Of a DNA stretch of 64,000 nucleotides, positions 1-43,475 are shown one piece after another. The DNA is taken from positions 47,441,763 to 47,505,762 of the forward strand of contig CM065697.1 of NCBI GenBank assembly GCA_017654935.2. The letters are read 5' to 3'. Each line of letters opens with the position of its first letter. Position 1 is the first letter of the stretch. The position numbers and the translations under genes were made by a program. The notes under the pieces are model-generated. The model worked only from the letters and a program-made list of their open reading frames with translations. It did not search any database and was not told the DNA's origin. The stretch comes from Phymorhynchus buccinoides (lineage: Eukaryota; Mollusca; Gastropoda; Neogastropoda; Raphitomidae).

Positions 1-29
1 TGTACCCCGGATCATCGGAGTACGATCAG
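1..29 (+). CDS. HIPK: HIPK exon 1 of window (3' end only)
   Basis: Two bases of a split codon, then YPGSSEYDQ, then the donor GTAAGT at 30. This is the end of kinase subdomain X; vertebrate HIPKs have nearly the same residues at this point. The exon continues to the left. Reading past the donor meets TGA at 51-53, so splicing here is required. I take this copy as the genuine exon end because it is the first in a series of echoes and has the strongest donor. The window edge prevents proof that no further copies lie upstream. Confidence 0.8.
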
Positions 30-3000
30 GTAAGTGGTCCCTGGGCTGTGTGATAGCTGAACTGTTCCTGGGGTGGCCCCTGTACCCCGGATCATCGGAG
101 TACGATCAGGTGAGTGGTCCCTGGGATGTGTGATAGCTGAACTGTTCCTGGGGTGGCCCCTGTACCCCGGATCATCGAGTACGATCAGGTGAGTGGTCCC
201 TGGGATGTGTGATAGCTGAACTGTTCCTGGGGTGGCCCCTGTACCCCGGTTCATCGGAGTACGATCAGGTGAGTGGTCCTGGGCTGTGTGATAGCTGAAC
301 TGTTCCTGGGGCGGCCCCTGTACCACGGTTCATCGGAGTACGATCAGGTGAGTGGTCCTGGGCTGTGTGATAGCTGAACTGTTCCTGGGGCGGCCCCTGT
401 ACCACGGTTCATCGGAGTACAATCAGGTGAGTGGTCCCTGGGCTGTGTGATAGCTGAACTGTTCCTGGGGCGGCCCCTGTACCACGGTTCATCGGAGTAC
501 GATCAGGTGAGTGGTCCCTGGGCTGTGTGATAGCTGAACAGTTCCTGGGGTGGCCCCTGTACCCCGGATCATCGGAGTACGATCAGTTAAGAAAGTTTTC
601 AGAGAATAAGTATGGTAATAGTTCAAAGTTGTAGTAGTAGTTGTAGTTGTACAGTACACACTGTAGTAGTAGTAGTAGTATGGTAGTAGTAGCAGCAGCA
701 GTTGTATTATTATTATTAGTAGTAGTAGTAGTAGTAACAGTACTAGTAGTGCGATTGCAAAGTTGTTGGTTGCATACTTTTGCAATTATTAACTTAATAA
801 TTAAGTGCAAACCTTATGTGTGCCTCCTCACCTCCTCCCCCCACCCTCCACTAAATCCCCACTGCCACCCCCTATCCTCATTATCTTCCTTATATCTGGG
901 TAGGGACCTCTGCTCCATTCTGAAAGGAAAATTTGTGGCCTGCAGTTGACATGATAATTGATGATACACTAGGCATGAACGTATGACACTCTATCAAGAG
1001 GAAAAAAAGATTGAACAAGGTCGTAAAGTTCATACAAAGTTTGTAAAGTTTGTTTAACAAACAAACAAAAAAGAAAAAAGGGGCAAATTGTCGGGCGAAA
1101 GCTGGAAGATACCCTCAGCTTTCTTTATTTCTTTTATGTTGTTATTGTTTGTTCTCGTCGCCTGGCTTAAAGACTCCAGGGATCATCCCAACAGCTGAAG
1201 CACTTGAACACTATGGTACAAATGCACCATCTAGGGATGAGAACATTACGTGTGTGACCGTTTATGATTACCCCCCACGTGGGCAGCCACACTCCGACTT
1301 AGTATGATTTTGGATTGATTATGTTATGCTAGGAGCTTGTCATGGCTTAAGACAGTCCCTGCATAACTATGCAGAACATAACATTTTAATGCAGCCTTGG
1401 TGTTCTAGCTTATGTCAATTGGTTTTACACAGCCTGATCATCGGCTTATGCCAAGGCGTACTTTATTTCTTGTTATGATAATACCTTCTGGCTTTCAGCC
1501 GACGAAACGCAATGTGCTGCAATAGCAGATAAGACAATTATAGTAGGAGTGGAGGCTGGAAGCCAGCACCTGCAGCCAAAAGTGGTCATGCCTTAGCTTA
1601 GCTTCCCCTGTGCCCCCGTTGAGGACCTGGGACGGTATTCATGTCGAGATAGCATGAGACTTAGCATGATGCTAACTTAGAAGCTCTTCCAAAAGTCCTA
1701 TTAAATCCTATAGGACATTGGAAGACCTTCTAAGTTAGCATCATGCTAAGTCTCATGCTATCTCAACGTGAATACCGTCCCAGGGGACTAAGTCAACCCT
1801 GGAACCCGGGTTTTCCGGTTTTCAAGAGTTTTGTAGAAGCACATGGGTGCTACTCTTTCAGTTTTACACTAATTTCAGTATTTTTAATGTTGCCAGAAAG
1901 TGAACTTCAGTTGTTTTTTTAATTCATCACACACACACACAAATTGACCACAAGCGATTTGGGGCGTTTTAAACTTGGTTGTTGTATCTTGGAAGTTTAC
2001 AAAGGCAATGTAATAACTTTACAAGACTTATCGCACTCAAACTGTCTCTGTCTATCGTTTTAACTGTCTGTCTGTCTCGTTATATCTCTCTCTTAAGTTA
2101 CCCCCATGAATCGTTCGACAGGGCTCTGTCCCTGTACACTGCTGGGGCCATGGGTCCTTGGACCCCTGCCTTTCAGGTTTTTTTTCTTTTTGGAGAGTTG
2201 CACCCATGGAAGCACCCGTGTAATCTCACTGTTTCGTGAAAAGCACGAGTCTCCTGTAAAACATTGACAATGACAGACATGCCTACCGTCACGGGTCGCG
2301 CGGGCAAGCGTGCAATACCGAAAGCTTGCGAAAGTCAGCCCCAAAGTTTTTTGAAAGAGCTTTTGAACCAATCGTCTTTCACCAAGGTCGAGCCAAAATT
2401 TGACCGCCTACACGCTTGGCAGCTTCAAGTGTTGGAGTGCGCGAATTCCATGAAGATGGATGCTGGACGAAAATGTTCCTGAAAATCATGTTCTGTTACT
2501 GATTTTGAGAGTGAATGTTCTTGAAAAGCAAATTTGGGGGTAGGCATGTCTGTAATGATGATGTTGATGATGTTCCAGATCCGCTACATCTCCCAGACCC
2601 AGGGCCTCCCCCCGCCGGAGACCATGCTGAACCAAGCCACCAAGACCACACGCTTCTTCGTGCAGGAGGCAGACAACACCTTCCAGGCATTCTGGAGGCT
2701 CAAGGTCAGTGGAAACTATGCCAAGGTTGAAGGCACACAGCGCCTTCTCTTTACCAGAAAACGAAAACGAAATCGAAATTTCATTTGACCAGGAAAACAT
2801 GAGATAAGCAATACAGTGGAACCTCCCTTATAAGACCTTCAAAAATCATCCAAAATGAGGTCTTATAATAATAAAGGAGGGGTTTTATAAGGGGGGTAAT
2901 TTTAATACTTACAAAGAAGGGCAATGCCTCAGAGAAGTAGGTCTTATATGGGAGGGAGTCTTATAAGGGAGGTTCCTCTGTACAATGCTTTTTTCCACCC

Positions 3001-43229: not shown

Positions 43230-43475
43230 CCCATCAAAGCACGGCCGTACCAGTACTTCGCTCGAAATGGAAAGAACTTGGCTTGAAATGAAGTAAAATA
43301 CCAGGATTCGCGCTGCCTATCAGCTGGGACCCATCAAAGCAAGGCCGTACCAGTACTTCGCTTGACCCATCAAAGCAAGGCCTTACCAGTACTTCGCTTG
43401 ACCCATCAAAGCAAGGCCTTACCAGTACTTCGCTTGACCCATCAAAGCAAGGCCTTACCAGTACTTTGCTTGAAG
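43230..43475 (+). repeat. Echoes of the last coding bases after the stop
   Basis: 36-bp units CCCATCAAAGCAAGGCC then TACCAGTACTTCGCTTGA, about five copies, repeat the final codons ([15 protein letters not shown]). One unit has a longer part (GCCTATCAGCTGGGACCC). Weaker traces (CAGTACTTTGCTTGAAG) continue to about 43830. Confidence 0.92.

Follow-up and report, generated by a model that had tools for sequence, protein, structure and literature searches.

Tandem repeats spanning exon-intron boundaries have been published from amphioxus under the name of mirages (PMC3087553, PMC3902484). The passages of these papers considered here describe tandem copies of an exon border together with its splice site, on either the 5' or the 3' side, with units of tens of bp to about 160 bp and with AG or GT preserved in many copies (PMC3087553, PMC3902484); PGBD5 and troponin C are reported there as further amphioxus cases (PMC3902484), and new introns are suggested to arise by way of mirages, which may be general among cephalochordates (PMC3087553). 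Undisturbed regular splicing and a length that is unstable between haplotypes or cells also belong to the description of mirages. The passages considered from PMC3443670 and PMC4974935 deal with the origin of introns by tandem duplication; in ATP2A1 and in potato RdRp, local duplications copied splice signals and the copies became a working intron or exon. We analyzed 64,000 nucleotides of snail DNA (the window, a term used for this whole stretch), in which a HIPK gene carries copies of several of its own exon borders, hereafter echoes, in its introns. The original prediction knew of no named phenomenon of this kind. Such a name exists, the gene of the original amphioxus paper reportedly being Adh3, and we regard the present locus as a further instance, from a mollusc, of a recognized type, produced by an ordinary mechanism in a host that is new as far as we searched: no molluscan mirage was recognized in the literature searched, which lacked most subscription journals.

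The identification of the gene as HIPK with 17 exons in the window was upheld by protein search and by the presence of a single open frame. With a query of 990 residues joined from the exons without exon 8, the closest protein was the HIPK of Babylonia areolata (63% identity across the whole query), and further relatives were found in Nucella lapillus (57%) and Littorina saxatilis (56%). A taxonomy look-up places the Babylonia and Littorina lineages in Caenogastropoda, to which Nucella lapillus also belongs; by its nearest HIPK relatives the host is thus a caenogastropod snail, unlike the cephalochordate host of the mirages described to date in the sources above. An amphioxus origin of the DNA, considered on account of the mirage papers, was rejected by the protein search. 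Once joined, the 17 exons form a single open frame, 1013 codons long with the stop, no echo being needed as an exon, and the C-terminal end encoded in the window matches the ending of the Babylonia, Nucella and Littorina proteins. The window starts within exon 1, and the first 22 residues of the protein were borrowed from the second copy of the exon 1 repeat. One short exon was located with the help of the Nucella and Littorina proteins:

23152-23217, + strand: exon 8, 22 codons

It is present in the HIPK proteins of these two species and missing from the Babylonia isoform compared, and from this comparison it may be alternatively spliced. Scans of the window for tRNAs and for Rfam families at gathering score were negative, and no gene was found in the 20.5 kb of the window downstream of the HIPK stretch.

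Echoes were sought with TRF, by BLAST searches of the window with every exon extended by 60 bp on either side, and by inspection. Many exon-echo matches within the window had BLAST E-values below 1e-20, which places the repeats beyond chance. Local repeats cross the donors of exons 1, 4, 11, 12 and 16, all of which had been predicted; the predicted echo of exon 5 proved weak, and a borderline case at exon 13 had been overlooked. The donor-side features are the following:

1-591, + strand: exon 1 donor array, unit of about 80 bp (TRF, BLAST and inspection)
13852-14036, + strand: exon 4, encoding part of the kinase C-lobe, authentic donor after 14036
13956-14883, + strand: exon 4 donor array, echo donors after 14211, 14347, 14483 and 14708
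16600-16635, + strand: weak copy of the donor edge of exon 5, 36 bp at 83% (BLAST, E = 3e-5)
31574-31919, + strand: exon 11 donor array, unit of about 91 bp with a TG-rich part
32690-33100, + strand: exon 12 donor array, unit of about 108 bp with 11 exonic nt per copy
33620-34089, + strand: exon 13 donor array, six copies of a 78-bp unit, beginning 3 nt inside the exon
41477-42056, + strand: donor edge of exon 16 with a single echo; the authentic donor follows 41505 and the echo donor 41886

The exon 1 unit consists of 75 nt of exon end, equal to the 25 codons that the snail relatives also have there, and of the first 5 nt of the intron, which read GTGAG, or GTAAG in the first copy. The first donor in the window lies at 29|30 and is followed by six echo donors that keep GT (after 109, 188, 268, 347, 426 and 506) and by one copy that has lost it (586). 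This last copy, which adjoins unrepeated intron, reads TTAAG where the other copies read GTRAG, and by its letters the donor next to the remaining intron seems dead. Since the window begins inside this array, the true end of exon 1 may lie upstream, outside the window. Exon 4 is followed by four clear copies and, at 14827-14880, by a decayed one; three echo donors come after exon 11 (after 31704, 31789 and 31880) and three after exon 12 (after 32808, 32916 and 33015). The exon 13 echo is borderline because the array overlaps the exon by no more than 3 nt and because a related copy of the 78-bp repeat also occurs upstream of the exon, at 33238-33336, so that the repeat is found on both sides; the array may merely abut the border. 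The echo of exon 16 is a single copy (89 bp at 96.6%) and is dispersed rather than head-to-tail. The weak exon 5 match was not recovered under the whole-window repeat criterion given below.

Acceptors crossed by local repeats were found, as predicted, at exons 10 and 11, together with two repeats that involve no splice edge:

28110-28752, + strand: exon 10 acceptor array (TRF, BLAST)
28704-28816, + strand: exon 10, authentic acceptor at 28704
30250-31289, + strand: exon 11 acceptor array, a mosaic of intron and exon pieces
31227-31613, + strand: exon 11, with repeated edges on both sides
36518-36570, + strand: part of exon 14, copied over 53 bp at 83% to 40682-40734 in intron 15 (E = 3e-10)
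43175-43516, + strand: end of exon 17 and repeats past the stop, 36-bp unit with the last codons and the stop

Six echo acceptors (28118, 28218, 28306, 28419, 28519 and 28607) precede the authentic acceptor of exon 10, and three (30697, 30892 and 31061) that of exon 11. The stray copy of exon 14, noticed in the original prediction and found here 4.2 kb from its source, is not an edge echo because the source lies inside the exon. The repetition of the terminal codons of exon 17 was also recovered: between 43194 and 43473 the C-terminal codon units past the stop keep the frame, with TGA in several of them and CGA in one.

The complete mirage unit, with exon, junction and intron, is thus found at exons 1, 4, 10, 12 and on both sides of exon 11, and with the qualifications given above at exons 13, 16 and 5. 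Seven or eight borders are affected in this one gene, in contrast to one or a few per gene in the amphioxus cases, as far as the cited passages go. The arrays also differ from ordinary intronic minisatellites in that they include a splice junction.

Which of the serial splice sites is authentic can be judged from the reading frame. Our list of echo sites comprises 32 sites, 23 donors and 9 acceptors, without the decayed copy behind exon 4 and the weak match of exon 5, and use of any one of them would produce a frameshift, a stop or both (23/23 donors, 9/9 acceptors). In contrast to ATP2A1 and potato RdRp, the snail frame is complete without the copies and would be broken by use of the listed ones. 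The prediction that the intact exon always keeps the outermost site (first donor or last acceptor) fits exons 4, 10, 11, 12, 13 and 16 by reading frame and is conjectural for exon 1, whose array starts outside the window. A duplication running from inside an exon into the intron leaves the exon whole only up to the first donor, and acceptors behave mirror-wise; this geometry, together with the need for an intact frame, accounts for the rule, and no special mechanism is required.

The same property bears on the suggestion that the echo sites are functional. They would serve either as decoys that retain U1 or U2AF close to the authentic site or as poison extensions by which NMD reduces HIPK output; a poison extension has to cause a frameshift or stop, as all 32 sites would. 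The splice dinucleotide is retained in 31 of the 32 listed sites (22/23 donors and 9/9 acceptors), although resemblance to the junction was the criterion by which they were found, and this favours intact ones. For the 31 echoes scored for divergence, a set without the GT-less exon 1 copy at 586 and the decayed exon 4 copy, all 31 dinucleotides are intact where 27.6 would be expected from plain divergence, a weak excess, made less telling by the relatedness of the copies and by the similarity-based choice of sites. Divergence is alike in the exonic and the intronic portions of these echoes (58/1030 positions, 5.6%, and 71/1164, 6.1%, respectively; P = 0.65). Codon differences between authentic and echo sequences comprise 29 synonymous and 23 non-synonymous changes, which looks like constraint but is inflated by shared changes; among the echoes alone the count is 10 to 10, and we rejected coding constraint in the echoes on this basis, even if neutral change would be expected to leave a slightly lower synonymous share. 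When scored with a splice matrix, echo donors are mostly similar to the authentic donor and at exon 12 exceed it, as functional sites might, whereas at exon 13 four of five fall well below it. Site strength thus generally fails to explain the choice of the outermost site, and position would have to do so. The unit and the length of the arrays moreover vary from edge to edge, and RT-PCR in amphioxus suggested, in the passage considered, that regular splicing is undisturbed by mirages (PMC3087553). We consider a function of the echoes very unlikely.

It could also be argued that the arrays are largely artefacts of assembly, all the more so as one amphioxus mirage appears aberrantly assembled in a draft genome, according to the portion of the source considered (PMC3087553). 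The copies in the snail gene, however, differ from each other by substitutions and indels in mosaic patterns, which reused reads would not give, and an uninterrupted frame runs through the joined exons; errors in copy number are still conceivable. An artefactual origin of most arrays is accordingly extremely improbable in our opinion.

The density of echoes in this gene had been considered unusual, and its assessment depends on the repetitiveness of the surrounding DNA. Repeat clusters were defined from same-strand repeats of at least 25 bp, 20-1500 bp apart, with E-values up to 1e-3. The window contains 29 of these, of which 21 lie in the gene stretch (positions 1-43475, 43.5 kb, the last cluster extending to 43516) and 8 in the 20.5 kb downstream, and repeats cover 23.4% of the gene stretch vs 16.1% of the downstream part; the gene is only moderately richer in repeats. 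The 8 edge-spanning clusters do not differ from the other 21 in period (P = 0.83), span (P = 0.22) or identity (P = 0.85), and in these respects the arrays resemble ordinary intronic minisatellites.

In order to compare the observed positions with random placement, an edge was counted as spanned if at least 3 bases of a repeat lie on each side of it, and 32 splice edges were tested; the exon 17 stop repeat, which has no splice edge, falls outside these 32, and the weak exon 5 echo was not counted. Eight of the 32 edges are spanned, compared with 7.4 expected under circular shift (P = 0.49) and 7.2 under random relocation of the 21 gene clusters (P = 0.45). Circular shifts under 15 repeat definitions gave P values of 0.41-0.54, three of these definitions (TRF) seeing 6/32 edges, without exons 4 and 16, and a shift across the whole 64 kb gave P = 0.37. 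Local shifts of 0.3-3 kb produced on average slightly more matches than the true positions (P 0.73-0.82 over the 15 definitions). With the count altered and the repeat map unchanged, a hypothetical 7 edges (minus exon 13) would give P = 0.62 and 9/32 edges (plus exon 5) P = 0.36. Six donors and two acceptors are spanned, a bias that is not significant (P = 0.29). The echo density is therefore about what local repetition would give by chance, and an excess over random placement is not supported.

Other ways of counting the same arrays lean further toward an effect of the borders. Eight of the 21 arrays touch an edge, with 4.9 expected (P = 0.055), and 7/17 exons have a spanned edge, with 4.6-5.0 expected (P 0.14-0.19). 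The edge-level and array-level counts can differ because random arrays often swallow whole exons, with two edges each. Among exons 2-16, 5/15 are spanned on exactly one side vs 2.3 expected (P = 0.06), and none is duplicated entirely, where relocation predicts 2.2/15 (P = 0.07). When relocations with a whole-exon match, or also those with a match interior to an exon, were dropped, the one-sided count gave P 0.14-0.16 (5 vs 2.9 expected, P = 0.14, among relocations swallowing no exon), so that random duplication with removal of whole-exon copies explains the one-sided excess. Repeats also cover 35% of intron sequence within 500 bp of an edge vs 18% farther away, a difference tempered by the concentration of both exons and arrays in the 27-44 kb region. 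The array-level excess and this near-edge coverage are the observations that speak for a promotion of tandem duplication by exon borders, as might follow from stalling, R-loops or an open chromatin state at the junctions; the edge-level count, stable across the 15 definitions, and the local shifts speak against it, in a single gene that offers little power. We hold border promotion to be unlikely, with some room for a modest effect, the leaning of the array-level, exon-level and one-sided counts being marginal. The broader proposition that splice junctions in these snails are duplication hot spots, with mirages genome-wide and duplicate sites feeding new introns or exon extensions, seems to us comparably doubtful.

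The interpretation that we favour, and consider highly probable, is that the echoes are mirage-type minisatellites arising from random tandem duplication filtered by selection, the null model of the original prediction, which fits the placement tests best. Very frequent local tandem duplication in this snail DNA, with units mostly of some tens of bp to about 200 bp, would straddle splice junctions on some occasions by chance, being random with respect to exons. Whole-exon copies would be removed by selection, and the surviving arrays would be those leaving one intact exon, with the first donor or last acceptor still used and the extra copies intronic. Unequal exchange or slippage could then have expanded the arrays, and the transcript would be spliced at the outermost sites. 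The presence of seven or eight such borders in a snail gene suggests that mirages are not a chordate oddity and that any genome in which local tandem duplication is very frequent would show them. These arrays offer a clean setting in which to study how the spliceosome chooses among serial near-identical sites, and one in which to ask whether such arrays seed introns.

Two further repeats were noted in the introns. On the minus strand at 38794-39333, within intron 15, about four 135-bp copies carry an open frame ending in CAAG|GTGAG and can be read like an exon end with its donor. As an exon of a gene this array was rejected: it has no Pfam family, its PDB matches are at chance level (E 0.12-0.79), and no protein relative was found in a search limited to proteins of similar length. 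The translations of 14950-15160 and of about 25200-25430 have a stretch in common, and to judge from this resemblance introns 4 and 8 probably contain members of a dispersed repeat family.
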